DNA of 34,797 nt from an uncultured bacterium (GTDB lineage: Bacteria; Zixibacteria; MSB-5A5; CAIYYT01), in contig CAIYYT010000265.1 of the NCBI GenBank assembly GCA_903930455.1, positions 1 to 34,797 on the forward strand, in the 5' to 3' direction. Of the stretch, positions 13,492-34,550 are shown in pieces. A program made the position numbers and the translations under genes. The notes under the pieces were generated by a model. That model was not told where the DNA came from. It saw nothing but the letters and a program-made list of their open reading frames with translations, and did no database searches. Position 1 is the first letter of the stretch. Each line of letters starts with the position of its first letter.

Positions 13492-13538
13492 CTAAGCATT
13501 TTCTCCCATAGAATGGTTGGGGTCTGACTGACCGGTTG

Positions 13539-14807
13539 CTATTCGTCCTCACCGCGTTGAGAAAGGAAGATGCAATCGGTAAGTTTCACTTGTCCTCTGA
13601 CGAAATCCTCGGCGAAGACCTTGCAGGTGGGTGAGCCGCAGCAACCGCAGTCTATTTGATGAAGTCTTTGATACACTCTTTCTCTTTCTTTCATTCTCTT
13701 GATGGAGGTCTGCAAATCGGTATCGAAGTATTCCGTAGGACGAGGCAGAATCGGGTGCTCCAAAGAATAGTATCCCTCCTTGAGCTTTCGTTCCACATCC
13801 TCATGTTCCCTTTGGGTATGCCTCTCGTATTTGTGTCTCTGCTTGGTGCTGTTAGACTGCGCAACATAGGGGTTCTCAACATTTAATGGCCCGCCGATAC
13901 AACCAAACATGTGCGCCAGCGCTTCCACAAATGCGACATTCCGCAAGCGCGAATTCTCAATATCGTCAAGTATCTGCACGACGTGGTCCAACCCGGAGAC
14001 GGCCAACCAGTTTTCCGCTTTTACCGATCGGATAATGCTGCCTGTAGCGACCCAGCCACTGCTAAAAGCGAAGTCCTCGGGAACCATGCTCTCGTCAAAT
14101 TCTTCTTTGATAGTTATTACATGCGGGAGAAGAACGGAGTACGTGTCCTTGATAGAGAACGCATCGTCAAACCAGGATTCTTCCTTTTCGGCGGGCTGCC
14201 TGATGGAAACGATCTTTGCAGGACAGTTGGCAATGTAGAATATGCCAATATCGTCTGGCTGCAACCCCAGCTTGCCGGGGTAGCTCCGCCTGATCTCCCG
14301 CGCCGTCATTTCCCGTGGCACGTCCATCGGGACAATCAACTCGACTAAGTCCGGATATTTGACCTGAATGAGCCTGACTATAGAAGGGCAATAGGACGAG
14401 ATGAGCGGAAGACGGCCTCGATATCCCTTTATGTATTCGAATAGGGCGTTGCCGAGCGCCAACGACGAAGTCGCAACGTCGACGACTTCATCAAATCCGA
14501 GACTCCTTAGGGCCAGATGGATGACATAAGGGTGAATACTCGACTCGAATTGCGAGTAGAGCGCCGGCGCAGGAACCACGACTTTGTACTTAAATTGAGA
14601 TATTTTGGCGACCGGATCGACGATTAGTTGAATGGCGCCGGAAGGACAGACAGACAAGCATTTGCCGCAATCGACACATAGGTCCTCGAATATTGTTGCC
14701 TTACCGTTTCTCACGCGGATGGCCTGCGTAGGGCAATGTCGCATACAAGCCATGTGTCCTCGACACTTTTCCGGATCTACTCTGTGCGCGTGATAGTACG
14801 TTGCCAA
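13539..14807 (-). CDS. Sensory-type [FeFe]-hydrogenase-like Fe-S protein with altered cluster ligands
   Basis: 422-residue protein related to the putative sensory (HydS, group C/D) [FeFe] hydrogenases. The N terminus holds a double ferredoxin. In the first site the pattern is Cys15-His18-Cys21-Cys25, where Cys is normal at 18; the second (LCVDCGKCLSVCP) is intact. The H-cluster region keeps Cys140 (ISSYCPS), Cys195 (ANCPAK) and Cys303, but His299 replaces the first cysteine of the C-x3-C motif. Tyr139 replaces the proton-relay cysteine. A C-terminal FeS-domain motif has Cys387, 390, 395 and 412 (C-x2-C-x4-C-x16-C). The start is TTG with GGGAG about 10 bases upstream. Position between HsfB-like and NuoE-like genes suggests a redox or H2 sensor. 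Catalysis is doubtful. Confidence 0.82.
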   Translation of the reverse strand: MATYYHAHRVDPEKCRGHMACMRHCPTQAIRVRNGKATIFEDLCVDCGKCLSVCPSGAIQLIVDPVAKISQFKYKVVVPAPALYSQFESSIHPYVIHLALRSLGFDEVVDVATSSLALGNALFEYIKGYRGRLPLISSYCPSIVRLIQVKYPDLVELIVPMDVPREMTAREIRRSYPGKLGLQPDDIGIFYIANCPAKIVSIRQPAEKEESWFDDAFSIKDTYSVLLPHVITIKEEFDESMVPEDFAFSSGWVATGSIIRSVKAENWLAVSGLDHVVQILDDIENSRLRNVAFVEALAHMFGCIGGPLNVENPYVAQSNSTKQRHKYERHTQREHEDVERKLKEGYYSLEHPILPRPTEYFDTDLQTSIKRMKERERVYQRLHQIDCGCCGSPTCKVFAEDFVRGQVKLTDCIFLSQRGEDE

Positions 14808-17607: not shown

Positions 17608-20600
17608 CTACTTCAGGAGAATCATCTTCCTGGAAGTCGTGAACTCGTCAGAGACGATGCGATAGAAATAGACGCCAGACGCGACGGAATTTCCTCTTTC
17701 GTCCGTTCCATCCCATGTCACAAAGTGAGTTCCCGCCGTTTGCAGACCACTTGTGAGGGTCCTGACCGTCTGACCCAGCACGTTCAACACTTCAACGCGC
17801 ACTTCGCAGCTCTTCGGAAGCGCAAAGCGAATCTCCGTCGAGGGATTGAACGGATTCGGGTAGTTCTGACTGAGACCGTACTGCTTCGGTAGCGCTGATG
17901 CCTTTACTATCTGGTCGATCTTGACATTCAGCCGCTTTCCGTTGCGGTCGCAAACAACTCCGTTGACAAGGTCAAGGTTTTTCCGATCACCCTTGAAGTC
18001 GAAGTTGACAATCGGACCGTCACCGGCAGCGATAGCGTTCTTGCCGGTCAGGTCGACCAATCCGACTTTGAACGAGCCATCAACGACTCCTGAGAATAAC
18101 CGGAGATTCTTCGACCGCTCGGTGGTTTGCGCCACGATCTCATCTGCTTTGCTGATATCCGTCTTGAACTCAAGCTGCACACCCGCAACTTCGGCATCAG
18201 TGTGCATTTCGACAGCGCTGGTCTTGGTTGAAGAGTTCGTGGTTTCGTTCTCTGCCAGCTTCAGCGTGGCGCTGTAAACCGAGCGACTGTCTTGCAGGAG
18301 CTCGCCGTCGGGCGAGAGCTTGCCGTAACTGCCGCTGCATGGCGCATGTCCGCCGCTGAAGATGTATGCAATCAAGTACACCACATCGGAGATGTCATCC
18401 ATACCATCGCAGTTTGCGTCACCAGCGATCAATGGAATCGGCGCCGAACCACCTGAGAAGATGTAAGCGATGAGATAGACTGCGTCTGAGATGTCGATTC
18501 CACCATCGTGATTGGGGTCACCGGGGATGTAGGAGGTGTCCTGTTTGCACTTGCCGAGATTGTCAGCAGCCCAGAGGGTGTAGATTTCCAGAGAATCGAG
18601 GACACGGTTGAAAAGCTCGATCTCATCGAGCGCACCAGTAAACTTATGACTGGGAGTCAGAAGATTTCTCCCTATTACCAATGGTGCGGTGTTGGTCAGA
18701 CTCCCTTGAAAAGCTGTCGCACCGGCTATAGGACCTACGACATTACCATCCACATAATGGAGCCAACCCGAGGGATTATCTCTGTCAACAGTGACCGCGA
18801 TATGATGCCAATTCCCGTCAGCGACGAACCCTGTCGTGACCCAGTTATTATAACCAACCCCGTCACCAATCTCCGAACTCAGGCAACCGTTGTACAGAAA
18901 GAGTACAAAGCCTTTATAGGTACCAGAGATTACTCGCTTGTCCAGGATTGTCTTTGGCGACTCGGTAGCATCTGTGGTTTTGATCCACAAATCGACAGAG
19001 AAATCGCCAGTGCCGAAGTTCAATTCGGCTTGATCGGGCACATCAACAGAGTTTAACCCGTCAAAGCTTAATGCACCATCGACCATTCCAGTCACTGGAG
19101 CCGGGCTGTTCTTCCAGGTACCAGAATTGTTGACAGCACCGGCAATGTCTTTTGAAGTCGTGCCCGCCGTCTCATCCAGCGGCCACCAGGCGACCATACC
19201 CGAAGGGGGCGGGACACAGTGCTTGGTGTTGGTGTAGGTGCACGCGATAGACTCCCCGGGATCGAGATCAATGTTCGCCGTCTGACCATTCACGGTTGTT
19301 CCCCCGTCAGGGTCTTTACACGCCAAACTGGCGAAGGCCCAAGGCAAAGACTGCCCCAGTTCCGTCACCATGTAATTCCCAGCCGCAATGTTGGTGAACG
19401 TCTTACTCCCCGTCCCGTTTATCGTGGTGATGGTGAAGCTGCCAAAGCTCCCCGTGTAACTGAAGGTGCCATTCCCGCCGATGGTGTTCTTGGTGATGGT
19501 GATTGTGCCTACGCAGGTAGGGCAGTTATAGCCACTGCTCGCTGCGCCATCCTGGTCGGTATTGCCGCTACCCGAGCCGCCCCACATGTGGTCGTTATCG
19601 GGGCCGCCGTACATATTGTCGTTGCCTGCGTTGCCCCACATCCAGTCGTTGCCGTAGCCGCCGTACATCACGTCGTTGTCCCGGTTGCCGAACATCCAGT
19701 CATTGCCGTTACCACCGTCCATCTTATCGTCGCCACGGTCGCCGAACATCTTGTCGTCACCGTCGCGACCGAGGATGATGTCGTTACCATCATTCCCCCA
19801 CATCCGGTCGTTATCGGCACCACCATCCATGCAGTCATCCCCGGCGTTGCCGAACATGTAGTCAGTGCCGTTGACGCCAAGCAGATTATCGTTGTCTTCA
19901 TTCCCGAATATGAGGTCTCTGTCATCGCCGCCGTCAATGCAGTCATTCCCTTGGTTGCCGAATATAAGGTCGACGCCGGGGCTGCCAAACATGAAATCGC
20001 CGTCCTGATTCCCCCACATCCAATCATTATCGGTACCGCCATCCATGCAGTCAACCCCTTCGTTACCGCTCATCCAGTCAACGCCCGGGCTGCCATACAT
20101 GATATCGTTGTCCTCATTGCCCCACATGGCGTCGTTGCCATTGCCGCCGTCCATCCTGTCGGGACCCCGGTTGCCCCACATAGCATCGTTGCCGTTGTTG
20201 CCATCGATCCAGTCAGTGCCGTCGTTGCCAAACAAGGCGTCGTTGCCTTCGCCGCCGCTCAATTTGTCGTCGTTCTCGTTGCCACACAAGAGGTCGATGC
20301 CGGCGTCGCCGTAAATCTCGTCGTTGCCCTCGCCGCCCAACATGGCGTCGTTGCCATCGCCGCCGCTCATCCAGTCGTTGTCCTGACCGCCCGACATGGC
20401 ATCGTTGCCGGCGTCGCCGTACATCGTGTCAATGCCATGGTTGCCAAACATAATGTCGTTACCGATGCCGCCGTGCATCTCGTCGTTGTTATCGTTGCCC
20501 CACAAGAGGTCGTTGCCGTCGTCGCCGTAAATCTCGTCGTCGCCCTGGTTGCCGCATATGATGTCGTTGCCGGCGCCGCCCCTCAAGTAGTCGTCGTCCT

Positions 20601-23307
20601 GGTTGCCGCTTATGACGTCGTTGCCGTCGTAGCCGTTAATCAGGTCTTTGCCCTGGTTGCCCCATATTAAGTCGTTGCCATCGTCGCCGCTTATGATGTC
20701 GTCGTTCTCGTTGCCCCACAAGATATCGGAGCCGGCGTCGCCGTGCATCTCGTCGTTGCCCGTGTTGCCACACATGATGTCGGTGGCGTCACCGCCGTAC
20801 ATCTTGTCGCCGTCCTCGTTGCCCAACATGATGTCGGTGCCGGCGTCGCCGTGCATCTCGTCAATGCCTTGGTTGCCCAACATGATGTCGTTGCCGTCGC
20901 CGCCGTACATCTTGTCGCCGTCCTCGTTGCCCGACATGATGTCGGCGCCGGCGTCGCCGTGCATCTCGTCGTTGCCCGTGTTGCCACACATGATGTCGGT
21001 GGCGTCACCGCCATACATCTTGTCGCCGTCCTCGTTGCCCAACATGATGTCGGTGCCGGCGTCACCGTACATCTCGTCAATGCCCTGGTTGCCCAACATG
21101 ATGTCGGTGGCGTCACCGCCATACATCTTGTCGTTGTTCTCGTTGCCGAACAAGAGGTCGGAGCCGGCGTCGCCGTTCACATAGTCGTCACCGGTGTTCC
21201 CGCACACGAAATCTGTACCGTCGCCGCCGTACATGCAGTCGTTCCCCTCGTTGCCCCACATGAAGTCCATGCCGCCCTCGCCGTACATGTCGTCAATGCC
21301 TTCGTTGCCCCACATGAAGTCCATGCCATCCCGGCCATACATGCGGTCGCTGCCGCCGCGGCCCCACATGAAGTTGGTGCCGGGGCCACCAATCATCAGG
21401 TCGTTGTTGTTGGTGCCAAACATAAGGAAGGCGTTCTTAATGGTGTTGGTAGTCTCGAAGTTGCAGTCCAATGGCGGTGTCTTAGCTAGCGAAGCGTCAG
21501 TTTCCTCGAACATACCGCCGATCCTAGCGACGATGGCCTCAGAGAGCGAGTCGCATCTTCTTTCAAGCTCGATAGCCCTCTGGGCAATCGCGTCGACCCG
21601 TGTGAGCAAGGTGTCACCGCCGTCCACGAACTCCAAATCGGCCCGCGCGAGGAAGGAGTCGCCCGTGGACGAGAGCGTGTCAACCCGCGTAAGGAACGCG
21701 TCGCACGCCTGCTGAAACTGGAGCTGGAGGTCCGCGAAGGACGTCTCAGACGCGGTCAGCTGTTGCAGCCCATGGGCTTCGAGCGTGTCAGCATGGAAGT
21801 TGAAGCTGACGACTGTATCTTCCATGCGCTGTACCAACTGTTCGATCCTCACCTCGTTGAGAGAATCAGCAATGACCGAGTCGGTGAGCACATCAAGGTA
21901 CTCGATTATGTCGTTGCCCCCGCTGTCAGCAAAGATGCCGATAAAGCTGCTAAGTTCCGCCACAATCTGCAAGACGCTATCCGTCTTCGCGGGGAACCGG
22001 TTCCCGAAAGGTATGATCTCGCTGTCGGCATCTAAGTGCAGCGCCTCGGCCGCGCCAATGAGCTGCGTCTGGGCATCCGAGACAAAGCTCTCTGCGGTCT
22101 GCAGGAACGCCTCGCTGCCGTTCGCGGTGAATCTGACAGCGTCCCAAATAAGTGTTTCGACGCTGTCTCTGACGACACTAATGCCTATGAGAACCTCGTT
22201 GAGTTCACCGAAGACGCTGTCCAGATCTGCGATCTGGGCCGTTGTGTAACTGCCTGTGCCCCCGATGAACGTGTTGATGCCATCGCCCAAGTCAGCATTA
22301 ATCGGGAGGAGGTCGGCGAGGGGACCTTCGTCGTGCCCGAAAACAACCCAGTCGTCGCCGTCTCCGGTACAGATATGGATACCGTTGACCAGGGTGAGCT
22401 GAAAGGCGTAGTCGGGGTATACAGTGGTCTCTTGGTTGTCGACCTGGATAGTGTCGCCTGTCGAATTAAGGCGCAGGAGTATGGAGTCAGGACCTGACGT
22501 GCCGTTGATGGTGAGAATGCTGTCGTCGAGGATTGCACCAAAAGCCGTCTTACACTTGCCCGCGCTGCCAGCAGCCCAGATGCTCTGGATCTCAGCAGGA
22601 TCGAGGACACGGTTGAAAAGCTCAATCTCGTCAAGCGTGCCAGCAAACGTTTGACTGGGAGTTATGAGATTTCTTCCCATTACGAATGGGGCGGTGTTGG
22701 TCAGACTTCCTTGAAAAGCAGTCGCACCGGCTATGGGGCCTACAGCAACACCATCCACATAATGGAGCCAACCCGTGGCATTATCTCTGTCCACGGTGAC
22801 CGCGATATGATGCCAATTCCCATCAGCGACGAACCCTGTCGTGACCCAGTTATTATAACCAGCCCCGTCACCAATCTGCGAACCCAGGTAACCGTTCGAC
22901 AGAAAGAGTACATAGCCTTTGTAAGTGCCAGAGAATACTCGCTTGTCCAAGATTGTCCGCGTTCCGGAAGCATTTGTAGTTTTGATCCACAGATCGATAG
23001 AGAAATCGCCTGTGCCGAAACCCAATTCGGCTTGATTGGGCACATCAACAGAGTTCGACCCGTTAAAGGTCAATGCGCCCGCGACTTTTCCAGTCGCTGG
23101 AACCGGGCTGCTCATCCAAGTACCGGCATTATTAACGCTACCTGCAATGTCATTTGCAGTCGGGCCCACCGTCTCATCCAGCGACCACCAGGCGACCATG
23201 CCGGTTGGTGGCGTTGCACACTGAGCATACAGAGACTGCGGCGCCACAATGGTGGCCATCAGCATAAGGGCGAAGGCCAGAAACTGTCTAAAGTAGCGGG
23301 GTATCAT
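17608..23307 (-). CDS. Giant secreted LamG / RTX-like repeat / dockerin protein with T9SS-type C-terminal domain
   Basis: 1899-residue exported protein. Residues 1-29 are a signal peptide ending YAQ. Then come LamG-like domain 1 (30-252); a linker and a largely helical region rich in Asp, Ser and Leu (about 255-620); about 68 tandem nonapeptides of RTX type (629-1244); a small beta domain like pilin prealbumin folds (1266-1360); and LamG-like domain 2 (1363-1586). After these are two dockerin-like calcium loops (GDPNHDGGIDISDAVYLI and GDANCDGMDDISDVVYLI, 1596-1656), a cohesin-like beta domain (about 1675-1803), and a C-terminal sorting domain starting QNYPNPFNPSTEIRF (1814-1828). The start has AAGGAGGAGG upstream. 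The tail implies type IX-like secretion and surface attachment. The target is unknown; LamG and RTX suggest calcium-dependent adhesion or sugar binding. It is transcribed alone. Confidence 0.9.
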   Translation of the reverse strand: MIPRYFRQFLAFALMLMATIVAPQSLYAQCATPPTGMVAWWSLDETVGPTANDIAGSVNNAGTWMSSPVPATGKVAGALTFNGSNSVDVPNQAELGFGTGDFSIDLWIKTTNASGTRTILDKRVFSGTYKGYVLFLSNGYLGSQIGDGAGYNNWVTTGFVADGNWHHIAVTVDRDNATGWLHYVDGVAVGPIAGATAFQGSLTNTAPFVMGRNLITPSQTFAGTLDEIELFNRVLDPAEIQSIWAAGSAGKCKTAFGAILDDSILTINGTSGPDSILLRLNSTGDTIQVDNQETTVYPDYAFQLTLVNGIHICTGDGDDWVVFGHDEGPLADLLPINADLGDGINTFIGGTGSYTTAQIADLDSVFGELNEVLIGISVVRDSVETLIWDAVRFTANGSEAFLQTAESFVSDAQTQLIGAAEALHLDADSEIIPFGNRFPAKTDSVLQIVAELSSFIGIFADSGGNDIIEYLDVLTDSVIADSLNEVRIEQLVQRMEDTVVSFNFHADTLEAHGLQQLTASETSFADLQLQFQQACDAFLTRVDTLSSTGDSFLARADLEFVDGGDTLLTRVDAIAQRAIELERRCDSLSEAIVARIGGMFEETDASLAKTPPLDCNFETTNTIKNAFLMFGTNNNDLMIGGPGTNFMWGRGGSDRMYGRDGMDFMWGNEGIDDMYGEGGMDFMWGNEGNDCMYGGDGTDFVCGNTGDDYVNGDAGSDLLFGNENNDKMYGGDATDIMLGNQGIDEMYGDAGTDIMLGNEDGDKMYGGDATDIMCGNTGNDEMHGDAGADIMSGNEDGDKMYGGDGNDIMLGNQGIDEMHGDAGTDIMLGNEDGDKMYGGDATDIMCGNTGNDEMHGDAGSDILWGNENDDIISGDDGNDLIWGNQGKDLINGYDGNDVISGNQDDDYLRGGAGNDIICGNQGDDEIYGDDGNDLLWGNDNNDEMHGGIGNDIMFGNHGIDTMYGDAGNDAMSGGQDNDWMSGGDGNDAMLGGEGNDEIYGDAGIDLLCGNENDDKLSGGEGNDALFGNDGTDWIDGNNGNDAMWGNRGPDRMDGGNGNDAMWGNEDNDIMYGSPGVDWMSGNEGVDCMDGGTDNDWMWGNQDGDFMFGSPGVDLIFGNQGNDCIDGGDDRDLIFGNEDNDNLLGVNGTDYMFGNAGDDCMDGGADNDRMWGNDGNDIILGRDGDDKMFGDRGDDKMDGGNGNDWMFGNRDNDVMYGGYGNDWMWGNAGNDNMYGGPDNDHMWGGSGSGNTDQDGAASSGYNCPTCVGTITITKNTIGGNGTFSYTGSFGSFTITTINGTGSKTFTNIAAGNYMVTELGQSLPWAFASLACKDPDGGTTVNGQTANIDLDPGESIACTYTNTKHCVPPPSGMVAWWPLDETAGTTSKDIAGAVNNSGTWKNSPAPVTGMVDGALSFDGLNSVDVPDQAELNFGTGDFSVDLWIKTTDATESPKTILDKRVISGTYKGFVLFLYNGCLSSEIGDGVGYNNWVTTGFVADGNWHHIAVTVDRDNPSGWLHYVDGNVVGPIAGATAFQGSLTNTAPLVIGRNLLTPSHKFTGALDEIELFNRVLDSLEIYTLWAADNLGKCKQDTSYIPGDPNHDGGIDISDAVYLIAYIFSGGSAPIPLIAGDANCDGMDDISDVVYLIAYIFSGGHAPCSGSYGKLSPDGELLQDSRSVYSATLKLAENETTNSSTKTSAVEMHTDAEVAGVQLEFKTDISKADEIVAQTTERSKNLRLFSGVVDGSFKVGLVDLTGKNAIAAGDGPIVNFDFKGDRKNLDLVNGVVCDRNGKRLNVKIDQIVKASALPKQYGLSQNYPNPFNPSTEIRFALPKSCEVRVEVLNVLGQTVRTLTSGLQTAGTHFVTWDGTDERGNSVASGVYFYRIVSDEFTTSRKMILLK
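18550..19221 (-). repeat. LamG-encoding segment, copy 2 (internal duplication)
   Basis: Encodes residues 1363-1586. It is visibly near-identical at DNA level to 22552-23220 over long runs, for example the stretch around 18740-18840 against 22740-22840. This indicates a recent duplication or gene conversion within the gene. Confidence 0.8.
19576..21423 (-). repeat. Tandem 27-base repeats encoding RTX-like nonapeptides
   Basis: About 68 units of the form M-x-G-[N/G]-x-[G/D]-x-D-x. Two unit types alternate: M-W/L-G-N and M-Y-G-G/D. A higher-order period of 18 residues (54 bases) is therefore visible, rising locally to 72 residues (216 bases). The pattern fits calcium-binding parallel beta-roll repeats, but the hydrophobic position is mostly methionine. 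Confidence 0.88.
20674..21105 (-). repeat. Two adjacent 216-base higher-order repeats inside the RTX array
   Basis: Residues 735-806 and 807-878 are two copies of a block of eight nonapeptides. They are nearly identical for the first six units and diverge in the last two. The DNA is also close to identical, which points to recent expansion by unequal recombination or slippage. Confidence 0.75.
22552..23220 (-). repeat. LamG-encoding segment, copy 1 (internal duplication)
   Basis: Encodes residues 30-252. It is the partner of 18550-19221. Confidence 0.8.
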
Positions 23308-23699: not shown

Positions 23700-24239
23700 A
23701 TGGTAGAAACCGCAGCGTTCGATTGGCTGGCAGCGATAGAGAGGAATGACCGGCACTTTATTGCCGAGCTTCAAGCGGTTGTGAGCGCGATTGTACGCAA
23801 GTGGAACTGGGGTGGTTCGGAGAGCGTGGGCGATATCGTGCAGGACTGCCTGCTCAGACTGTTGCAGAGCATTCGCAGCGGCAGGTTCCGGGGAGAATCG
23901 TCTCTGAAGACCTACATCTATGCGATCGCTCGCAACACTTGTATCGACTACTACAAGGAGCGAAAGGCACTTGAGGCAGTGGACGTTGATTCGGTCGAGC
24001 TGGTGGATGAATGCTTGTCGGCTGAAGACCATCTCATACATAGAGATCAACGCCGAATCGCCTGCCAGGTATTGCTCAGTCTACCGGAAGAGTGCCGGCG
24101 CCTATGGCGAGCGATCTTTTTCGGGAAGCGTAATTACAGGCAGGCCGGCGAATTGCTGAAACTGTCGGAGGGAACTGTCAAGCGGCGGATGTGGGAGTGT
24201 CGGCAGATAGCCAGAGAAAGGCTGAAATCCTACGATTAG
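23700..24239 (+). CDS. ECF-family RNA polymerase sigma factor
   Basis: 179-residue extracytoplasmic-function sigma factor. Region 2 is visible at about residues 20-85, with the core-binding stretch SVGDIVQDCLLRLLQSI and the -10-recognition part SSLKTYIYAIARNTCIDYYKERK. Region 4 spans about 115-175, with a helix-turn-helix near YRQAGELLKLSEGTVKRRMWE. Length is typical. It is followed 68 bases later by a zinc-finger anti-sigma gene, the usual pairing. The start has no good Shine-Dalgarno of its own: the GGAG at 23674-23677 is correctly spaced for an out-of-frame ATG at 23687 instead. Likely targets are genes with the TTGGAAC-type promoters between this gene and the giant surface protein, including itself. 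Confidence 0.9.
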   Translation: MVETAAFDWLAAIERNDRHFIAELQAVVSAIVRKWNWGGSESVGDIVQDCLLRLLQSIRSGRFRGESSLKTYIYAIARNTCIDYYKERKALEAVDVDSVELVDECLSAEDHLIHRDQRRIACQVLLSLPEECRRLWRAIFFGKRNYRQAGELLKLSEGTVKRRMWECRQIARERLKSYD

Positions 24240-24307
24240 TCAGAACCTTTTGGCCGCTGGGGAGACTAAGTGAATGTGAAAGGTCAGGAGAAATATTCGG
24301 GCACACT

Positions 24308-25159
24308 ATGAGCGAGAAAATGACATGCGATACCTGCCGAGAGTTGCTGCCGCTTCTGTATGCGAAGTCGCTGTTGGACAAAGATGAAGCGCTGACTCGT
24401 GAGCATCTTAAAGGATGCCCGAAATGTCGCGCTCTCTTGACAGAGGAAAGACCTCTTTATGCCGCTGCGCGTGTCGAGGGTAATCTCTCGCCGCTTGCCG
24501 ATCATCCTGCCGGCGCGCAGCTTGATCGGTACGTCCATGCAAGAAGTAGCCTGTCCTCAGCAGAACTCGAGGAACTGGAGAGCCATCTATCCAAGTGCGG
24601 CCTGTGCAAGGAACTAATTTCGCACCTTGGTGAGTTGCCGGCAGAACTCGACGATCTAGTTGAAGGCGAGAGACTGCCGCTTCTGTCGAGATCGGAAGTG
24701 AAGCCCAGACCGAGAACTCGCATCATCGACATCGGTCGCCGTGTCTTCTGGCGACCTTTGGCGGGATATGCGGCTGCCGCCGCGGTTTTGTTGATTGCTC
24801 TGGTGATGCGCCAGGCTCCGATTCCCCAGGCCATCCCAACGATCTCTGGAACAATATCAACAACGAGCCGTGGAGACAAGCAGACCGCCGTCTTCTTCTC
24901 AACGGCGAGAGCGTGTTGCCTTGTCCTAAAATACTACGTCGGCCCCGAACCCGGGCATCGGTATGACATGGAGATCAGATCCGAGAAAGCAAGTTGGCCG
25001 TCACAGGTTATTCGTAATTACACAGACTTCGATCCCCAGGGTAACGCGACTCTGAAAACACTAATTGAAGTCGGCGAGTATCGGCTGATTGTCTGCGACA
25101 TTGAGGGGGAGGATACCATCAGAGTAGTGAAACCCTTTGAACTGAAAGCTCAGAACTAA
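24308..25159 (+). CDS. Membrane anti-sigma factor with two zinc-finger domains
   Basis: 283-residue single-pass membrane protein that should hold the ECF sigma factor inactive. The first zinc finger has Cys7, Cys10, His33, Cys37 and Cys40. A second anti-sigma-type finger has His93, Cys97 and Cys100 (HLSKCGLC). One transmembrane helix (about 141-157, GYAAAAAVLLIALVM) follows a basic segment. The remaining roughly 125 residues would be periplasmic and match no domain I recognise; they contain a Cys-Cys pair and beta-like segments. The ATG at 24308 was chosen because the upstream extension overlaps the sigma gene and looks non-coding. The ribosome binding site is weak (AGGAG, far upstream). It ends 9 bases before the stop of the convergent CHAT gene. 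Confidence 0.85.
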   Translation: MSEKMTCDTCRELLPLLYAKSLLDKDEALTREHLKGCPKCRALLTEERPLYAAARVEGNLSPLADHPAGAQLDRYVHARSSLSSAELEELESHLSKCGLCKELISHLGELPAELDDLVEGERLPLLSRSEVKPRPRTRIIDIGRRVFWRPLAGYAAAAAVLLIALVMRQAPIPQAIPTISGTISTTSRGDKQTAVFFSTARACCLVLKYYVGPEPGHRYDMEIRSEKASWPSQVIRNYTDFDPQGNATLKTLIEVGEYRLIVCDIEGEDTIRVVKPFELKAQN

Positions 25160-25168
25160 TCGGGAAGC

Positions 25169-27877
25169 TTACTCAGAGACTCGCCAGTCGCCAACTGCGA
25201 TGAATGCCCCCCAGAGACATGGATGATCGGGAAGGCCCTTGCTGCGCGTTTCGGCAATCTGATTTAGTGCGAGAGCGCGCATCGTCACTGCTAGATTGCT
25301 GCCGCGCGAAAGGTAAAGCTGCTTCATGACTTTGGCCGTCTCGTGATCATCAACTTGCCACAGCGCGCTGATCACCGTGCGGGCACCTGCAAGCAGAAAT
25401 GCGCGCCGCAGTCCATAGACTCCCTCCCCCGCCTTTATGTCGCCAAGGCCTGATTCGCAGGCAGATAACACGACCCAGTCGACGGAAGTAAGATCGAGAT
25501 CTGCAACCTCGTAGGCTGTGAGGATTCCGTCGTCGGCCACAAGTCCATCCGTCGGCTGACCCCGTACCCCGGCACCAGCAAGATACAGCCCGGAATTCAG
25601 AAGTGGATTTTGAAGACTGGGAGCGTCGTCCAAATAATCCTGGGAATCAGCGCCAGGTGCTGTGTTGGAGCTTTGGAAGAAGCCATGAGTGGCAAGGTGC
25701 AGCACTCTTTTGCCCGGGGCCTCTTGTTTGAATCGTCCTTCGCGCGCATCTGCACCGATGAGAAGAGTGTGGGGTTCTCCCCGACGCTGCTGCCAAGCAG
25801 CGACGACGTCGTTGATCTCTCTTCTGGTGTATGGGAGTGGAGACAGCCCTGTCATCTCTTCGCTGTCTACCGCTGATGAACCGGCATAGAAGTCCGGATC
25901 CCCCAGCGCCAGCAGTCCGCTTCCCAACTCACGTTGGCGATCAAGTCGCAGCAAATCTCGACCGGCGGACAAGTAGTGGATCGGATGCTCTTCAATCAAA
26001 TACCGGCCATTTTCGTTCTTGAGGCATGCAAATGACACCAAGTTGAGGGCCCCGTCCGGAGCGATGTAAATTGTCTCGGTCGTGGCGAGTTTTCCTACGA
26101 ACGGTTCCCATAGCACTTGATAGAGCTTTCTCAGGGTAGAATCAGATCCCTCGATCAGTCTCTGATCGAGATCAGGCCACCTATCAGCAGCGATGGTCAT
26201 GTCATTGCGGTACTGACTGATCAGAGAATCGATGGGGCCGCATGCTCCCAGGTCGGTGATCATCGAGGGACCCTTGCGTGTCAGCAACACTCCCAAATAC
26301 CGTGATTGAGGCTTCTCGTTGTGTAAGGGCACAAACCGATACTCAAGATATTCGATTAGCGCGCTGTTTTTGGGAAGCTGTCTGCCGACACGTACGGAGC
26401 CGACCTTTCGCGAATTCGTTGCCTCCCGATAACTAAGACTCCGCGCCGCCAATTCACTCTCCAATTTGTCGCACACGCGGCCAAGAGAATCCATTTGGGC
26501 TCTGAGCAGAGGAATTTCACTTTGCGCCGGCCTACTGCCACTATGTAAATGAGAAAGACTTCGCTTATTCTTCCACAGCTTCTCTGCGAGTTCCCTCGTT
26601 TCTCGATCGTCTTCTCTAATCAAGCCCCGGTTGCGCAGGAATATTTCGTCGGAGACTTCTCCCTTCGATGCAAAAATGACGTCGGCGGCCTGCTCAAGCG
26701 ACTTGGCGTCTCTGATTCCAGAAAGCCGAAAGTACGACAAGTATTTATTCCCCCTGACACGCATGGTCTCCGAGTTCCGCAGTGCCTCGATCTCGGTCAT
26801 CACCCAGCAGTTACTTACAAAGTTATCGTGGGTTATGTCGAAAGCACGTTTGCCGGATCTTAGGGCTTGTTGATAGTTGCCAATCGAGCACCAATACTTG
26901 GCATAGAGACTGAGAGACCCCGCCACGTCACGATGGTTTGAGCCATAGGCGCTCTCTTGAATTGCCAGAGTTTTTTCGCACAGAGAGCGAGCCCGATCAT
27001 AATTCCCGAAACGGAGGTCAAGTTCTGCCTGTTTAGAAAGCACGAGGGCTACGTCGGGACTCTCTTCTCCTCCTTGAGCCACCTCGATATCCAAGGCGCG
27101 TTGCAAGAGGGCTACCGCTTCAGGATAACGTTGAAGGCCTGAATAAGCTTCCGCGAGATTCTGTAGACAGGTGACGAGCGTGGAAGTATCCGGTGCTGGA
27201 TCACTCTCAAGCGTGCCAAGCTCCTTTTCGAAGCCTTCGGCTGCCTCGGAAAACCTGTCGAGGGAAAGGTATAAGTTGTTGAGGTTATTGTTCACGATGC
27301 TCAGGTATAGCTTAGCTAGATCCGGGCGGCTGTCACAGATGGCGAGGGCTCGCTGAAAACATCTCATCGCCGTCGAAAAGCGGTGCTGATCATTTGACAC
27401 TGATGCATAGTTGTTCAGAACTCTCAGCAGACCGAGTGAGTCGGGTTTGGGCGATTTTTCCCAAATGCCGAGGGCTTGCTCAAACAGCACACGGGCTCTA
27501 GCACATTCCCCGAACGCCCAGCAACAAACACCCTTGATCCTCAGTGCCCGAGCAAGCATGGGATCCAATGGATAGCTATGTTGTTGGCGAATGCTTATCA
27601 CGGCGCTGACTATTAACAGCGCTTTTCGGAGCTTCCCACTGTTGAGCGCGGCATCGGCTAGATCGTAAAGCGAAGTCGCAAATGCGGTATCAGTCTGAGT
27701 CCATTCGGAACCATGTTTCGTCAGCGCTAGTTCCATCAGCACGATCGCGGAGTCGATTCCACCCGCATTCCTGAGAGAATCGGACTCGTCGGCCAGAGTT
27801 TGCCATCCTTGCCCCGCCGCTATAGCGAAAAAGAAAGCAGAGAGCGCAAGGTAGTACCACAATATTCTTCCCAGCAT
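25169..27877 (-). CDS. Secreted TPR-CHAT caspase-like protease
   Basis: 902-residue protein. The N-terminal 20 or so residues (MLGRILWYYLALSAFFFAIA) form a signal peptide or anchor. A long tetratricopeptide region follows (about 25-390), with repeats such as YPEAVALLQRALDI and YDRARSLCEKTLAI. After a helical linker comes a C-terminal CHAT domain (about 555-900). The caspase-like dyad is intact: His731 in HLATHGFF and Cys807 in LSACESGLG, with the downstream GARTVISALWQVDD typical of CHAT. The ATG at 27877 has TTGAGG 6 bases before it and yields the signal peptide; the longer frame adds unconvincing residues. CHAT proteases cleave specific partner proteins after a trigger sensed by TPR. The substrate is unknown. 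The gene is convergent with the anti-sigma gene, so cleavage of that or of the surface protein is a testable guess. Confidence 0.88.
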   Translation of the reverse strand: MLGRILWYYLALSAFFFAIAAGQGWQTLADESDSLRNAGGIDSAIVLMELALTKHGSEWTQTDTAFATSLYDLADAALNSGKLRKALLIVSAVISIRQQHSYPLDPMLARALRIKGVCCWAFGECARARVLFEQALGIWEKSPKPDSLGLLRVLNNYASVSNDQHRFSTAMRCFQRALAICDSRPDLAKLYLSIVNNNLNNLYLSLDRFSEAAEGFEKELGTLESDPAPDTSTLVTCLQNLAEAYSGLQRYPEAVALLQRALDIEVAQGGEESPDVALVLSKQAELDLRFGNYDRARSLCEKTLAIQESAYGSNHRDVAGSLSLYAKYWCSIGNYQQALRSGKRAFDITHDNFVSNCWVMTEIEALRNSETMRVRGNKYLSYFRLSGIRDAKSLEQAADVIFASKGEVSDEIFLRNRGLIREDDRETRELAEKLWKNKRSLSHLHSGSRPAQSEIPLLRAQMDSLGRVCDKLESELAARSLSYREATNSRKVGSVRVGRQLPKNSALIEYLEYRFVPLHNEKPQSRYLGVLLTRKGPSMITDLGACGPIDSLISQYRNDMTIAADRWPDLDQRLIEGSDSTLRKLYQVLWEPFVGKLATTETIYIAPDGALNLVSFACLKNENGRYLIEEHPIHYLSAGRDLLRLDRQRELGSGLLALGDPDFYAGSSAVDSEEMTGLSPLPYTRREINDVVAAWQQRRGEPHTLLIGADAREGRFKQEAPGKRVLHLATHGFFQSSNTAPGADSQDYLDDAPSLQNPLLNSGLYLAGAGVRGQPTDGLVADDGILTAYEVADLDLTSVDWVVLSACESGLGDIKAGEGVYGLRRAFLLAGARTVISALWQVDDHETAKVMKQLYLSRGSNLAVTMRALALNQIAETRSKGLPDHPCLWGAFIAVGDWRVSE

Positions 27878-28848: not shown

Positions 28849-31293
28849 ATGAAGATTCCGTGTTTGATTCCACTGCAGGCTGGCAGCCTGATCGGCTTGT
28901 TGAGTCGTAGACTGGTAGCGGTATTTGGAGCTCTTATGCTCGTTTCATGTCAAAGAATGGAAGCGCCCCGCTTCCTGACTCCTGTACCATTCACGGCCGT
29001 TCATATTGACGACGATTTTTGGGCTCCAAAGATTGAGATCAACCGCACCGTTTCGATCCCGTCGGCATTCAAGCAGTGCGAGAAAAATGGCCGTATCGAC
29101 AATTTTGCTCTGGCGGCGGGCAAAATCAAAGGTGAGCACAAGGGGGATTTTCCATTCGATGATACCGATGTTTACAAAATCATCGAGGGAGCCTCGTACG
29201 CCCTCGCCGTGAAATATGACGGGCGATTGGACGCATACCTCGATAGTGTGATCGCTCTCATCGCTGGGGCTCAGGAGGCCGACGGCTATCTTTACACGTG
29301 CCTTACCAATAAGTGCAAACGACTCGAACAGTGGTACGGCAAGGGGCGATGGGACAGGATTAACAGCCACGAGCTTTACAACTGCGGCCATCTGTATGAA
29401 GCGGCTGTCGCTCATTACCAGGCGACCGGTAAGAGAAGCCTCTTGAACGTTGCTATCAAGAACGCCGATCTAGTAGACAGAGTTTTTGGTCCGGCCGAAG
29501 GGCAGAAGAAGACACCCTCGGGGCATCCGATTATCGAAATGGCTCTTGTGAAGCTTTACCGGGTTACCGGCGAGGTGCGCTATCTAAAGTTGGCCCGATT
29601 CTTTATTGATGAAACCGGAAAAGGGACCGATGGCCACAAGTTGAGCGAATACAGTCAGGACCATAAGGCCGTTGTCGATCAAGATGAAGCGGTCGGTCAT
29701 GCCGTTCGTCTGGGCTACCTCTATTCGGGCGTGACCGATGTGGCATCGCTAATGAACGATTCAGCCCTGATGAACGCCTCGGAAAAGGTCTGGAACAATG
29801 TCGTTTCAAAAAAGCTGTACATTACCGGAGGAATAGGCTCGCGGGGGATGGGTGAAGGATTCGGACCCAATTACGAGTTGCCCAACATGACCGCCTACTG
29901 CGAGACGTGCGCCTCCATTGCCAATGTCTTCTGGAATTATCGGATGTTTCTCAACAAAGCAGATTCGCGCTATTATGATGTGCTCGAACGGGTACTTTAC
30001 AATGGCGTGATTTCGGGCGTGTCGCTTTCCGGCGACAAGTTCTTTTATGACAACCCGCTCGAGTCGAACCATACGCACGAGCGAGCCCCGTGGTTTGGAT
30101 GCGCCTGCTGTCCGGGGAACGTTACGCGATTTATGGCATCTGTTCCCGGGTATATCTACGCCACCACTCCTGACGCCATCATTGTGAACCTGTTTATCAA
30201 TAGCCATGCCGAAATCCCGGTAGGGAAAGACACTGTCGTAATGTCGCAGAATACCAATTATCCGTGGGATGGAACGGTAACGATTAGTATCGACAAGCCG
30301 AGCACAAAGCGTCTCGACCTGATGGTGCGCTTGCCGGGTTGGGCGGGCAATAAGGTTGGTCCATCCGATCTTTATCATTTTGCGGATTCAACCGGCGAAT
30401 CGGTTCTCTTCTATCTGAATGGGAAGAAGTTGCAGCCTGAGATCACGAACGGCTACGCGCATTTTCGGAAGCGCTGGAATAAGGACGACAAGATTCAGAT
30501 GTCCATGCCGATGCCGGTGCGAAAGATTCTGGCTAATCCGCAAGTGGAGTCCGACCGGGGCAAAATTGCCTATCAACGCGGACCGCTTGTTTACTGTTTT
30601 GAAGACAAAGACAACAATGATGGCTGGATGTTCGATCTATACGTTCCCAAGGAAGAAGAAACGCGTCATCAGTTCGAACCGGGTCTTTTGGGTGGAATTA
30701 CCACCTTGACTATGAACGGATATAAGGTTGCTGTGAACGGAGCAGATACAACCGTCGATAGAACCGTGTTGAAGGCCATTCCATACTATGCGTGGAATAA
30801 CCGGGGCACCGCAAATATGGTAGTATGGATGCCTGCGGCGAAGGAAAACGTATTCACCAAGATGGGCGGGAGCAAAGAGATGGAGGCGACCGCATCTTCA
30901 TCTTTGGAATGGGTATGGGGACTGAATACGGCCTTCGACCCCCAAAGCTCCGCCGATATCGACAAGAGTTATTTCTATTTCTGGGCGAGTGAACATCCGG
31001 AGGAGTGGGTGCAGTACGACTTCAAGAAACCGATCACTCTGTCTGAATCCAAAGTATATTGGCTGAATCTCGATCATTACGACGGCAACTATCGAGTACC
31101 TGAGTCCTGGGGTCTGATGGTCAAGGATTCGAAAGGGAACTGGGTGAATGTGGTCACGGCCGATCCCTACGGATTAGAACTCAATAAGTATAATGCAGTG
31201 ACCTTCAAACCGGTTAACACCTCGGCAATCCGAATGAAGGTGAAACCTCAGAAAGGGAGCTTCGCCGGAATACTGGCGTGGAGGGTCAGCTAA
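28849..31293 (+). CDS. GH127 (DUF1680) beta-L-arabinofuranosidase-like lipoprotein with discoidin-like C-terminus
   Basis: 814-residue glycoside hydrolase family 127 enzyme. It removes beta-L-arabinofuranose, in characterised members from hydroxyproline-linked arabinosides of plant glycoproteins. The cysteine-zinc active site of HypBA1 is recognisable: Glu336 as likely acid/base, Glu352 and Cys354 (CETC), and Cys420-Cys421 (GCACCPGN) as nucleophile and zinc ligands. The Glu336 to Glu352 spacing of 16 is the same as in HypBA1. A lipobox LVSC gives lipid-modified Cys34, so the protein is membrane anchored. The last 140 residues look like an F5/8 discoidin-type sugar-binding domain (EEWVQYDFKKPITLS). 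GGAGG sits 7 bases before the ATG. Some relatives act on other plant sugars, so the exact substrate is inferred. It is convergent with the glycyl radical operon. Confidence 0.88.
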   Translation: MKIPCLIPLQAGSLIGLLSRRLVAVFGALMLVSCQRMEAPRFLTPVPFTAVHIDDDFWAPKIEINRTVSIPSAFKQCEKNGRIDNFALAAGKIKGEHKGDFPFDDTDVYKIIEGASYALAVKYDGRLDAYLDSVIALIAGAQEADGYLYTCLTNKCKRLEQWYGKGRWDRINSHELYNCGHLYEAAVAHYQATGKRSLLNVAIKNADLVDRVFGPAEGQKKTPSGHPIIEMALVKLYRVTGEVRYLKLARFFIDETGKGTDGHKLSEYSQDHKAVVDQDEAVGHAVRLGYLYSGVTDVASLMNDSALMNASEKVWNNVVSKKLYITGGIGSRGMGEGFGPNYELPNMTAYCETCASIANVFWNYRMFLNKADSRYYDVLERVLYNGVISGVSLSGDKFFYDNPLESNHTHERAPWFGCACCPGNVTRFMASVPGYIYATTPDAIIVNLFINSHAEIPVGKDTVVMSQNTNYPWDGTVTISIDKPSTKRLDLMVRLPGWAGNKVGPSDLYHFADSTGESVLFYLNGKKLQPEITNGYAHFRKRWNKDDKIQMSMPMPVRKILANPQVESDRGKIAYQRGPLVYCFEDKDNNDGWMFDLYVPKEEETRHQFEPGLLGGITTLTMNGYKVAVNGADTTVDRTVLKAIPYYAWNNRGTANMVVWMPAAKENVFTKMGGSKEMEATASSSLEWVWGLNTAFDPQSSADIDKSYFYFWASEHPEEWVQYDFKKPITLSESKVYWLNLDHYDGNYRVPESWGLMVKDSKGNWVNVVTADPYGLELNKYNAVTFKPVNTSAIRMKVKPQKGSFAGILAWRVS

Positions 31294-31367: not shown

Positions 31368-33731
31368 TTAATCCGAGCTGTGCTCTGTCCTCCGAATAAT
31401 CTCATTCTGAAGACTGATCCCGAGGTCGACGAAATAGTCGCTATATCCCGCAACGCGGACAATTAGATCGCGGTATTTCTCCGGAGACTGTTGCGCCTGT
31501 CGAAGCGTTTCGGCGCTAACGACGTTGAATTGGATATGATGACCATCCAACTTGAAGTAGGTGCGGACTAGTTGCGCCACCTTGAGCATACCTTCCTCAT
31601 CGGCCAGCAGCTGCGGAGTGAACTTCTGATTGAGAAGCGTACCGCCGGTCTTAAGGTGATCCATTTTGGCGGCCGACCTGAGAACGGCAGTTGGGCCTTT
31701 CCGGTCCGCGCCTTGCACCGGCGAGATCCCTTCAGATAATGGCTCGCCGCACTGGCGACCGTCGGGGGTCGCCCCCACGACGCTTCCGAAATAAATGTGA
31801 CACGTGGTAGGCAGAAGGTTGATGCGAAAATGTCCGCCCCGTGTATTTGGTCGACCATCGATAAGAGAAAAATACGTCTCGAATACGTGACGCATGATGT
31901 CGTCGGCGTAATCATCATCATTGCCATACTTCGGCGTATGATTCCACAATTGATTTTGCATCGATTCGCATCCCTGGAAATCATCTTTGAGCGCGAGCAA
32001 TAGCTCAGCCATAGTTATGTCTCGATTGTCATACACATGGTACTTGATGGCCGCAAGAGAATCGGTGATTGTGCCCAAACCAACCCCTTGGATATATGAC
32101 GTGTTATATCTGGTTCCACCATCGTTGTAGTCTTTACCGTTAGCAATACAGTCATCGATCAGAATTGACAGGAACGGCGCGGGCAGATACTCCGCCCAGA
32201 GACGCTCGATAATGACATTCCCCTTGATCTTGATACCGATGAAGTACTTGAGTTGGGCGACAAATGCTTCATACAGAGCAGCGAAATCGCGAAAAGCTAT
32301 CGGGTCGCCTGATTTGAGACCGATTGATTGTCCGGTGTGGGGATCAACACCATCATGCAGCGTGATTTCGAGTACCTTGACCAGATTGAAGTAACCGGTA
32401 AGGATGTATGCTTCTTTGCCGAACGCGCCTGTCTCCACGCAACCGCTGGCGCCGCCATTGCGGGCGTCCTGAAGCGACTTCCCTTGGCGTAGCATCTCGG
32501 CGACGATGGCGTCGGCGTTAAAAAGCGACGGTTGCCCGTACCCCGTCCGAATGATCTTAAGCGCGCGCATGAGAAGCCTGTCCGGACTCTTCTTGCTGAT
32601 TTGGACCATTGAACTGGGCTGAAGCAGGCGCATCTCTTCGATCACGTCTAGAATGAGATAGGATAATTCGTTGGTGGCGTCCTCACCGGTTTCGGTCACT
32701 CCGCCAAGGTTGATCAAACAAAAGTCGGTATAGGTGTTGCTCTCCTGCGCGGTCACGCCGATTTTAGGGGGCGCCGGCTGATTGTTGAATTTCACCCAGA
32801 ACGACTGAAGCAGCTCGGCAGCACGCTCGCGAGTCAAGAGCCCGTCTTCAATATCGCGACGATAGAACGGCAGCAGATGATGATCGAGTCGCCCGGGGTT
32901 GAATGAATCCCACGTGTTAAGCTCGATAATTACACCCAGATGAACGAACCAGTAGTACTGCAGGGCTTCCCAAAACGTGCGAGGCGCATGAGCCGGAACA
33001 TGCCGGCAGATACTCGTCATCTCCCTTAACTCTGCTGCTCGCACCGAGTCAGTTTCCGACCTCGCCATTTGATCGAGCCTGTCGGCGTAACGGCTCGCCA
33101 AATGGATCAGCGCATCGGCCGCGATCGCCATCGCATTCAATTCCTCGCGTTTGTCGAATGCGGCCGGATCGTTGTAGAAGTCCAGGCTATCAATACTTCG
33201 CTGGATATCCTGTTTGACATCGACAAGACCCTGACGGTAAATCTTATCTCCAAGAACGGTATGTCCCGGCGCCCGCTGCTCCTGAAATTCGGTGAAAACA
33301 CCTGCCTGATAGGCCGCGCGCCATTCAGAATCGACCGATTTGATGATTCGGTCCCTTATGGAACGGCCCGACCAGAACGGTATAATTTCTTCCTGTTGCG
33401 TGCGGCGCGCGAATTCGTCAACTCCAAACGAGACCTTTTCGCGGGAATGGATGATCTCAAAATCCTTCAGCGAGTGAGTGCAGATTTCCGGGTAAGTTGG
33501 AGCGGCTTTGGGGGATGGCCCACGCTCTCCGACGATCAACTCGCCCGGATTTGCGCAGATTGTCATTTTTTCAGTGATGTATTTGAATGCCAGCGCACGC
33601 GAGACCGGCACTGAGACTCGGCATGCAATATCGCTCTGATAGAAATCGGTGAGGAGTCTCGCCCGTTCCAGCGAAATCGTTGGAGCCGCATTAAGGCTCT
33701 GCTCCCGGAGCCGTTTTATCCGCTCGTTCAT
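31368..33731 (-). CDS. hypD: Glycyl radical enzyme, trans-4-hydroxy-L-proline dehydratase (HypD) type
   Basis: 787-residue oxygen-sensitive glycyl radical enzyme, full length. The radical site is Gly762 in RVAGYSDYF near the C terminus. The catalytic cysteine is Cys431, with Glu433 in SGCVETGAFGKEAY. As I recall them, the active-site residues of the Clostridioides HypD structure (His160, Asp278, Ser334, Phe340, Cys434, Glu436, Tyr450, Thr645, Gly765) all fall on identical residues here with a constant offset of minus 3. Dehydration of hydroxyproline to pyrroline-5-carboxylate is therefore the best call. GGAGG for this gene lies inside the last codons of the activase gene, 6 bases upstream, so the two are coupled. 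No proC is visible in the window to finish the usual pathway. Confidence 0.85.
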   Translation of the reverse strand: MNERIKRLREQSLNAAPTISLERARLLTDFYQSDIACRVSVPVSRALAFKYITEKMTICANPGELIVGERGPSPKAAPTYPEICTHSLKDFEIIHSREKVSFGVDEFARRTQQEEIIPFWSGRSIRDRIIKSVDSEWRAAYQAGVFTEFQEQRAPGHTVLGDKIYRQGLVDVKQDIQRSIDSLDFYNDPAAFDKREELNAMAIAADALIHLASRYADRLDQMARSETDSVRAAELREMTSICRHVPAHAPRTFWEALQYYWFVHLGVIIELNTWDSFNPGRLDHHLLPFYRRDIEDGLLTRERAAELLQSFWVKFNNQPAPPKIGVTAQESNTYTDFCLINLGGVTETGEDATNELSYLILDVIEEMRLLQPSSMVQISKKSPDRLLMRALKIIRTGYGQPSLFNADAIVAEMLRQGKSLQDARNGGASGCVETGAFGKEAYILTGYFNLVKVLEITLHDGVDPHTGQSIGLKSGDPIAFRDFAALYEAFVAQLKYFIGIKIKGNVIIERLWAEYLPAPFLSILIDDCIANGKDYNDGGTRYNTSYIQGVGLGTITDSLAAIKYHVYDNRDITMAELLLALKDDFQGCESMQNQLWNHTPKYGNDDDYADDIMRHVFETYFSLIDGRPNTRGGHFRINLLPTTCHIYFGSVVGATPDGRQCGEPLSEGISPVQGADRKGPTAVLRSAAKMDHLKTGGTLLNQKFTPQLLADEEGMLKVAQLVRTYFKLDGHHIQFNVVSAETLRQAQQSPEKYRDLIVRVAGYSDYFVDLGISLQNEIIRRTEHSSD

Positions 33732-33737
33732 ATGCTC

Positions 33738-34550
33738 TTATCCTCCAATCCTGACTTCATAACCATAGTCTCGAAAGATCGCTGCCAGACGCTCGAGCAT
33801 TTCAGGACTTTGTGGTTCAAGTCCCAATCGCCGGCGCAGCAGGTGAAGCCGCTCAACCTTGTCTTCGCCGAGCTTGTTGTACGGCAGAAGGCTGATCCGA
33901 CGGATCGAACAGAGCGGTCTTAGAAAGGCCGCTACCGCCTCCAAATTTTCCATTGTATCCGTGATATCGGGTATCAGCGGCAAACGCACATCGATATTAC
34001 ATCCCAGCTTGGCCAGAGCGGCAAGATTCGCCAGAATGATTTCGTTGGAAACGCCAGTGTAGTACTTATGTGCTGCCGGGTCAATCAGCTTAAGATCAAA
34101 AAGGAACAAATCAACCCGATCGCGGATGCGTTCAAAATCGACAAACGACGTGTAGCCACAGGTATCGATTGTGCAATGCAGGCCGACCCCGGTGCAGGCA
34201 TCAAGCAAGTCATCTAGGAACTCGATCTGAGCCATGGGTTCACCGCCTGAGAACGTTACGCCGCCTCGGGATTGATCATAGAAAGGCTCATCGCGCATTA
34301 CTTCGTGAATGATTTCGCTGACTGTTACCATTCGGCCAAAAGTCGATTGAGACAACTGATTGGAGGTTGTAGCGATGTCACCGGCGCGACCAAGAGGGAA
34401 TGTCTCTGCCGAGGTCGACCGGCCTTCCGGGTTGTGGCACCACCAGCAATCCAGTGGGCATCCCTGGAAGAAGACTGTCGTGCGGATTCCGGGGCCGTCA
34501 TGGATACAAAATCGCCTGAGGTCGAATATGGTGCCAGTGCATTCCATCAT
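33738..34550 (-). CDS. Radical SAM glycyl-radical-enzyme activase
   Basis: 270-residue activating enzyme that places the glycyl radical on the downstream enzyme. The radical SAM motif C-x3-C-x2-C is Cys31, Cys35 and Cys38 (GCPLDCWWCHNPE), followed by the SAM-binding GGEP at 102-105 and the family pattern DLKLIDPAAHKYYTG. Most activases other than PflA carry an inserted ferredoxin domain with cysteines just after CHNPE. Here residues 39-75 contain no cysteine, so the auxiliary clusters are absent. The start is ATG 34550 or ATG 34547; neither has a clear Shine-Dalgarno. It lies 6 bases before the enzyme gene. A sigma70-type promoter is visible upstream. Confidence 0.88.
   Translation of the reverse strand: MMECTGTIFDLRRFCIHDGPGIRTTVFFQGCPLDCWWCHNPEGRSTSAETFPLGRAGDIATTSNQLSQSTFGRMVTVSEIIHEVMRDEPFYDQSRGGVTFSGGEPMAQIEFLDDLLDACTGVGLHCTIDTCGYTSFVDFERIRDRVDLFLFDLKLIDPAAHKYYTGVSNEIILANLAALAKLGCNIDVRLPLIPDITDTMENLEAVAAFLRPLCSIRRISLLPYNKLGEDKVERLHLLRRRLGLEPQSPEMLERLAAIFRDYGYEVRIGG

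Follow-up and report, generated by a model that had tools for sequence, protein, structure and literature searches.

A TPR-CHAT protein beside an ECF sigma factor and its transmembrane anti-sigma factor in a presumed member of the Zixibacteria: a candidate site-1 protease

The locus described here raises the question why the gene of a TPR-CHAT protein ends 9 bases from that of an anti-sigma factor, and whether the one protein acts on the other. It lies in a stretch of DNA of 34,797 nucleotides (the window), carried on contig C265; the genome comprises 3.77 Mb and is split into 266 contigs. The first-pass annotation had described an extracytoplasmic function (ECF) sigma factor, an anti-sigma factor with two zinc fingers and a convergent CHAT gene with a His731/Cys807 dyad and a predicted signal peptide, all of which were confirmed. 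It had also suggested that the exported CHAT protein cleaves the periplasmic domain of the anti-sigma factor. Our comparison points in the same direction, and we propose, with a probability of roughly 0.6, that the CHAT protein is a site-1 protease which would cut its anti-sigma factor after an invariant arginine, in a three-gene switch for envelope signalling. To our knowledge, few CHAT proteases of bacteria have been assigned a physiological substrate or a cut site; here the substrate question is directly testable, since the neighbourhood supplies both a substrate and one mutable residue. The features of the locus are:

23700..24239 (+): ECF sigma factor, 179 aa (Pfam and NCBIfam matches; a homologous sigma factor adjoins CHAT in 48 loci)
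24308..25159 (+): transmembrane anti-sigma factor, 283 aa from the ATG at 24308 (zf-HC2 match, homologues, AlphaFold2 model)
24404..24427 (+): zinc motif 1 of the anti-sigma factor, HLKGCPKC, aa 33-40 (read from the sequence; absent or lost in many homologues)
24584..24607 (+): zinc motif 2 of the anti-sigma factor, HLSKCGLC, aa 93-100 (H93 and C97 conserved without exception in 32 homologues)
24755..24814 (+): single transmembrane helix of the anti-sigma factor, aa 150-169 (hydropathy, AlphaFold2 helix)
24839..25150 (+): periplasmic immunoglobulin (Ig)-like beta domain of the anti-sigma factor, aa 178-281 (AlphaFold2 strands)
24869..24871 (+): codon of Arg188 in TTS-R-GD, proposed CHAT cut site (invariant in 69/69 tails; modelled loop)
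25160..25168 (no strand): gap of 9 bases between the convergent stop codons of the anti-sigma and CHAT genes
25169..27877 (-): putative exported TPR-CHAT protease, 902 aa, reading frame extendable to 27949 (Pfam, homologue alignment, AlphaFold2, Foldseek)
25187..26137 (-): CHAT protease domain (PF12770)
25457..25459 (-): codon of the catalytic Cys807 (invariant column)
25685..25687 (-): codon of the catalytic His731 (invariant column)
27812..27877 (-): predicted signal peptide, aa about 1-22 (hydropathy, AlphaFold2 helix 2-22; kept in linked homologues)

Starts of open reading frames (ORFs) were called mechanically; an alternative upstream start of the anti-sigma gene, GTG at 24191, would give a protein of 322 aa. 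The sigma factor matched Sigma70_r2 (3.7e-11) and the NCBIfam model sigma70-ECF with 86 bits (cut-off 42.9), and it has regions 2 and 4 only, as members of the family do, although the match to Sigma70_r4 (6e-05) was under its cut-off. In the anti-sigma factor, two H-x3-C-x2-C motifs precede one transmembrane helix and the gene adjoins that of an ECF sigma factor, as in ZAS-type anti-sigma factors; the zf-HC2 score was slightly below the curated cut-off in one scan and above it in another. This protein would bind and inhibit the sigma factor. The TPR-CHAT protein gave Pfam matches to CHAT (3.3e-63) and TPR_12 (9e-33) and exceeded the curated cut-off of PF12770. Its His731 and Cys807, numbered in the first-pass annotation in agreement with a start at 27877, were invariant across 20 full-length homologues, and the protein is a predicted protease. 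The N-terminus, MLGRILWYYLALSAFFFAIAAG, resembles a signal peptide by hydropathy and was modelled by AlphaFold2 as a helix at residues 2-22. The model of the whole protein had a pLDDT (predicted local distance difference test score) of 85.5 and a pTM (predicted template modelling score) of 0.86, and Foldseek ranked Csx29 of Craspase (1e-15), then human separase (1e-13) and DdvA (2e-13) as its closest matches in the PDB. The window genome holds two further CHAT genes, neither of which was seen beside an ECF gene.

Linkage of the three genes across the phylum

Relatives were searched with the CHAT protein, and the phylum, inferred to be Zixibacteria, with an alignment of the CHAT domain. The name of the phylum follows from one relative (G080), a contig of which (L205) is identical to JAFGNW010000245.1 (L063) of Candidatus Zixiibacteriota, all 24 of 24 probes being shared. 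The flanks of the CHAT loci were read with purpose-built hidden Markov models (HMMs), and the counts of linkage are limited to CHAT ORFs with 700 aa or more. The exported type of CHAT was present in 48 of about 129 genomes, with 68 full-length ORFs, and 48 of these ORFs adjoined a sigma/anti-sigma pair. Three gene orders occurred among the 48 linked loci, i.e., sigma-anti-CHAT in 26, the convergent arrangement of the window in 20 and CHAT-sigma-anti in two; one additional linked CHAT outside the 48 (L222) has a mis-called start. The unlinked remainder consisted of five tandem copies beside a linked CHAT, four genes at contig ends and approximately ten which are truly unlinked. Among 40 control loci of zf-HC2 anti-sigma factors from the same genomes, none had a CHAT gene nearby. 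The neighbours of CHAT thus do not vary freely, and the adjacency of CHAT, sigma and anti-sigma genes is far above chance. It was retained through repeated rearrangement, which argues for a functional tie.

The invariant arginine and the matching of compartments

The periplasmic tails of the linked anti-sigma factors are highly divergent, with a median column identity of 0.29. A single arginine was nevertheless invariant, both in the 51 tails of the first set (51/51) and in the 69 non-identical tails of the final alignment (69/69). It is placed 14-52 residues (median 24) past the transmembrane helix and corresponds in the window to R188 of TTSRGD, with the proposed cut between R and G. The residue that follows it was small in 68/69 tails (Ser 39, Ala 13, Gly 8, Thr 5, Asn 3, Glu 1), and the pattern ahead of it is near to [IV]-x-L-x-P-T-R, P5 being mostly Leu and P3-P2 often Pro-Thr. 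The only tail with a non-small residue, Glu, belongs to locus L278 of genome G117. In the alignment of the periplasmic halves the arginine was the only invariant residue, and in the full-length alignment it was accompanied only by H93 and C97. An HMM of the tail, trained on 26 sequences, detected 24 of the 25 tails set aside for testing (below 1e-3) and did not detect any of the 39 tails of control anti-sigma factors; the controls lack this tail, and the Arg-small motif is specific to this type of anti-sigma factor. A bare R[SGA] dipeptide after the transmembrane helix was rejected as a diagnostic, as many controls have one by chance, and only the alignment-based test of the arginine was therefore used.

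In the AlphaFold2 model of the anti-sigma factor (mean pLDDT 83.5, pTM 0.45), R188 lies in a loop, residues 184-193, between the strands 178-183 and 194-198, where the periplasmic domain is modelled with the lowest confidence. Foldseek searches with the Ig-like domain gave generic Ig/FN3-like and phage matches only. The arginine extends to proteins of other types. The transmembrane proteins of six acidobacterial sigma-X-CHAT operons have no recognisable zinc finger but show R-[GD] in the equivalent position (LTPALRGSG, LLPQTRGIA, LRPPLRGAN, LAPQLRGAG, LTPGLRGAG and LPAPKRDGG), and the zinc-finger-less, anti-sigma-like transmembrane proteins of L041, L054 and L066 also keep it. Most of the sampled acidobacterial CHAT genes were not linked to ECF genes. 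In the acidobacterial loci with the order sigma, transmembrane protein, CHAT (L084, L093, L104, L247, L248 and L261), the motif precedes a beta-rich tail.

Signal peptides and transmembrane segments were called with a simple hydropathy window. By this test 45 of the 48 linked CHAT proteins have an N-terminal export signal, and the predicted location of their CHAT domain is not the cytoplasm, a location that the first-pass annotation had named as speaking against its proposal; L187, one of the three that failed, resembles a signal peptide by eye. The linked anti-sigma factors were chosen for having a transmembrane helix, and a fair test of compartment therefore comes from a second CHAT family of the same phylum, related to L199:1929-4655. 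All 21 members of this family lacked a signal or transmembrane segment. Operon partners were found for 17 of them, and none has a transmembrane segment; they are soluble and 172-257 aa long, a zinc motif occurs in many, and a sigma factor was detected beside most of them. The protease and its presumed substrate share a compartment in both families, exported in the first and cytosolic in the second.

The loci of the cytosolic family, L199:1929-5886 and L227-L246, are operons with an ECF sigma factor and a soluble protein. These soluble partners have an invariant R-[GDSN] of their own and a conserved DSW motif; the one partner that was scanned had no Pfam match.

The anti-sigma tail and the exported CHAT type also occur in the same genomes. 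The tail model matched 44 of the 129 genomes, and 41 of the 44 hold the exported CHAT type as well (Fisher p 1e-22, a value that overstates independence because the genomes are related). In G127 and G128 both components are present but unlinked (L269/L224 and L270/L216, respectively). One of the exceptions to the co-occurrence, G092, has a more distant CHAT which adjoins the anti-sigma gene (L277).

Proposed mechanism, alternatives and neighbouring genes

We propose that the ECF sigma factor is kept inactive by the membrane-anchored anti-sigma factor, whose C-terminal Ig-like domain would be situated outside the inner membrane. The TPR-CHAT protein would be exported separately, its TPR superhelix may sense or bind an envelope signal, and on this signal the CHAT dyad would become active. 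It would then cut the anti-sigma factor after R188 in the juxtamembrane loop, and the Ig-like domain would be lost. A second cut of the shortened anti-sigma factor by an intramembrane protease of the RseP type would release the sigma factor. Site-2 proteases favour substrates stripped of their periplasmic domain, as known from RseA and RseP, and the window genome encodes an RseP-like protease with HELGH and PDZ. The distance of the site from the membrane and the RseP homologue are consistent with regulated intramembrane proteolysis, although they are no proof of it. The substrate and the site of the first step are well supported comparatively, by linkage, export signal, arginine site, the parallel in the cytosolic family, co-occurrence and DdvA, while cleavage, like all that involves catalysis, is a prediction. 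The first-pass annotation had also considered a switch for cell death, and nothing in the analysis points to cell death. PADLOC defence models gave zero matches, and a plasmid search with the anti-sigma factor as query gave no match.

Several observations weigh against this proposal. About ten CHAT genes of the exported type with usable flanks, including L004 in the window genome, have no neighbouring ECF gene. About nine loci with an Arg-motif anti-sigma factor have no neighbouring CHAT, the arginine being kept in L267, L269-L273, L275 and L278, and G069 (L273, L275) and G117 (L278) carry the tail without an exported CHAT at the threshold used. The four nearest relatives of the window genome (G001-G004) lack both the exported CHAT type and the tail, and the module is therefore accessory. 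The Asp with which separase binds a P1 arginine aligns by hand with Ala848, so that the S1 pocket must differ in architecture; this Asp was dropped as an argument for arginine at P1. The periplasmic CHAT could also act as a non-proteolytic sensor, and the arginine could have a structural role.

The absence of the module from four close relatives would agree with chance neighbours, an explanation of negligible probability that was refuted by the survey, given linkage in 48 loci, in many families of the phylum and in differing gene orders. A fairly unlikely alternative is that CHAT serves as a sensor or co-inhibitor, which binds the Ig-like domain and controls whether another site-1 protease can reach the arginine loop. 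DdvA makes such a binding role plausible, since it unites a TPR-CHAT region with a transmembrane anti-sigma factor; its sigma factor DdvS is active once DdvA is inactivated, and the inactivating signal is stated to be unknown (PMC4374960). Motif-bearing anti-sigma factors without a neighbouring CHAT fit a sensor as well. However, the His-Cys dyad is invariant in the linked homologues and would not be needed in a pure scaffold, and Csx29, whose solved fold is the closest, actively cleaves an ECF inhibitor. We regard it as very unlikely that the arginine is structural or binds a ligand in the Ig-like domain, with activation proceeding without a cut at this place and CHAT cutting elsewhere or not at all. 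The arginine does adjoin the first strand of the modelled beta domain and is kept also in loci that lack a neighbouring CHAT, but it lies in a loop of lower confidence with variable surroundings, is followed by a small residue in 68/69 tails, as expected for a protease site, and persists in the zinc-less acidobacterial proteins.

It is also quite unlikely that the sigma regulon includes CHAT as a product which acts on another envelope protein, e.g., a large surface protein, so that adjacency would reflect co-regulation only. The commonest gene order, the sigma-anti-CHAT operon (26/48), is in line with this, as is the presence of surface proteins with sorting domains near 9/48 linked loci, compared with 1/40 controls. 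Most modules, however, have no surface protein nearby, and co-regulation leaves unexplained the Arg-small site, its absence in the control anti-sigma factors and the matching of compartments. The surface protein divergent from the sigma gene in the window had been named in the first-pass annotation as another possible target of CHAT. A large surface protein was found near only 9/48 linked loci, and it was rejected as a general substrate or partner for this reason; it is more likely a regulated product.

17608..23307 (-): surface protein, 1899 aa, possible regulated product (domain matches; divergent from the sigma gene)

This protein contains two LamG domains, about 26 matches to RTX-type repeats, a dockerin-like dyad and, at the C-terminus, an FlgD-like sorting domain. 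Comparable large sorted proteins adjoin the sigma gene in the closest relatives of the module (L036, L187, L188 and L197), and at L203:5818-10620 (+) a surface protein of the Gingipain family (Peptidase C25) is flanked by two sigma/anti-sigma/CHAT modules. A search for a promoter motif shared by the sigma and CHAT genes in their upstream regions yielded no spaced pair that stood out clearly from shuffled sequences, and only sigma-70-like TTGAC words, which define no regulon, were seen upstream of the sigma genes. Elsewhere in the window, positions 28849-31293 (+) encode a GH127-family enzyme, similar to beta-L-arabinofuranosidase or aceric acid hydrolase, with a C-terminal F5/8-type domain. 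Positions 31368-34550 (-) encode a trans-4-hydroxy-L-proline dehydratase, a glycyl radical enzyme over the NCBIfam cut-off, and its radical SAM activase, and a hydrogenase-like and NuoEF/FDH-like iron-sulfur gene cluster was read from the translations alone at 6391-14807 (-).

Comparison with known systems

The two-step cleavage proposed here resembles that of RseA by DegS and RseP and the proteolysis of the RsiW type, where a membrane anti-sigma factor is cut outside the membrane first and then inside it. The site-1 protease of those systems is the serine protease DegS or PrsW, while a caspase-like CHAT cysteine protease would take this place here. If the proposal is true, a caspase-like protease joins the few site-1 proteases that are known to cut membrane anti-sigma factors.

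DdvA and DdvS of Myxococcus xanthus (PDB 8rot, 8rw5) likewise combine an ECF sigma factor with a transmembrane anti-sigma factor, as the PDB entries name DdvA, that is linked to CHAT. DdvA matched the window CHAT in fold (2e-13) and by CHAT profile (1e-4). Its CHAT region lies within the anti-sigma polypeptide, whereas in the window CHAT forms an exported protein by itself and an Ig-like domain belongs to the anti-sigma factor; among the 241 CHAT ORFs of the fetched loci there was no fusion of CHAT and anti-sigma factor. What two genes encode here is united in a single chain in DdvA, an independent sign that CHAT and anti-sigma factor belong together. Separase has a caspase-like fold related to CHAT and cuts after arginine (PMC9729208). 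It differs in being eukaryotic and intracellular and in its Asp for the P1 arginine, which is not conserved in the window CHAT (Ala848 by hand alignment); the same position is Lys670 in Craspase (PMC9729208).

The sigma module of Craspase, a type III-E CRISPR system (Csx29, Csx30 and the CASP-sigma RpoE), also has a TPR-CHAT protease with an ECF inhibitor as substrate. Csx29, the closest solved fold, cleaves Csx30, which inhibits an ECF sigma factor, and the cut falls within a small loop of the C-terminal domain of Csx30 (PMC10028731), like the site proposed here. No essential residue was found at the cut site of Csx30 (PMC10028731), whereas one arginine is invariant in anti-sigma factors of the window type. 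Craspase is activated by RNA and linked to CRISPR, Csx30 is not a membrane zinc-finger anti-sigma factor, and the window-type protein differs in carrying a predicted signal peptide. The window CHAT reached 14.5 bits with the Csx29 family model NF041237, below its cut-off of 300, and no Cas7-11-like gene was noticed among the window ORFs that were read, CRISPR arrays and the whole genome not being searched. In the literature the trio was met only in papers on Craspase, with incomplete coverage, so an earlier description is possible; a related idea concerns caspase domains with ECF sigma factors and a TPR protein in other systems (PMC8195603). We give about even odds to a wider view, in which the exported TPR-CHAT proteins, related to caspase and separase, would form a new class of arginine-specific site-1 proteases that turn on ECF sigma factors at the invariant Arg-small site of a dedicated Ig-like anti-sigma factor, their cytosolic sisters would act likewise on soluble anti-sigma factors, and the sigma module of Craspase would be an RNA-guided relative. 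If this is true, the control of sigma factors by TPR-CHAT proteins reaches beyond Craspase, where it is known, as a theme that is probably not tied to CRISPR and has an exported and a cytosolic branch.

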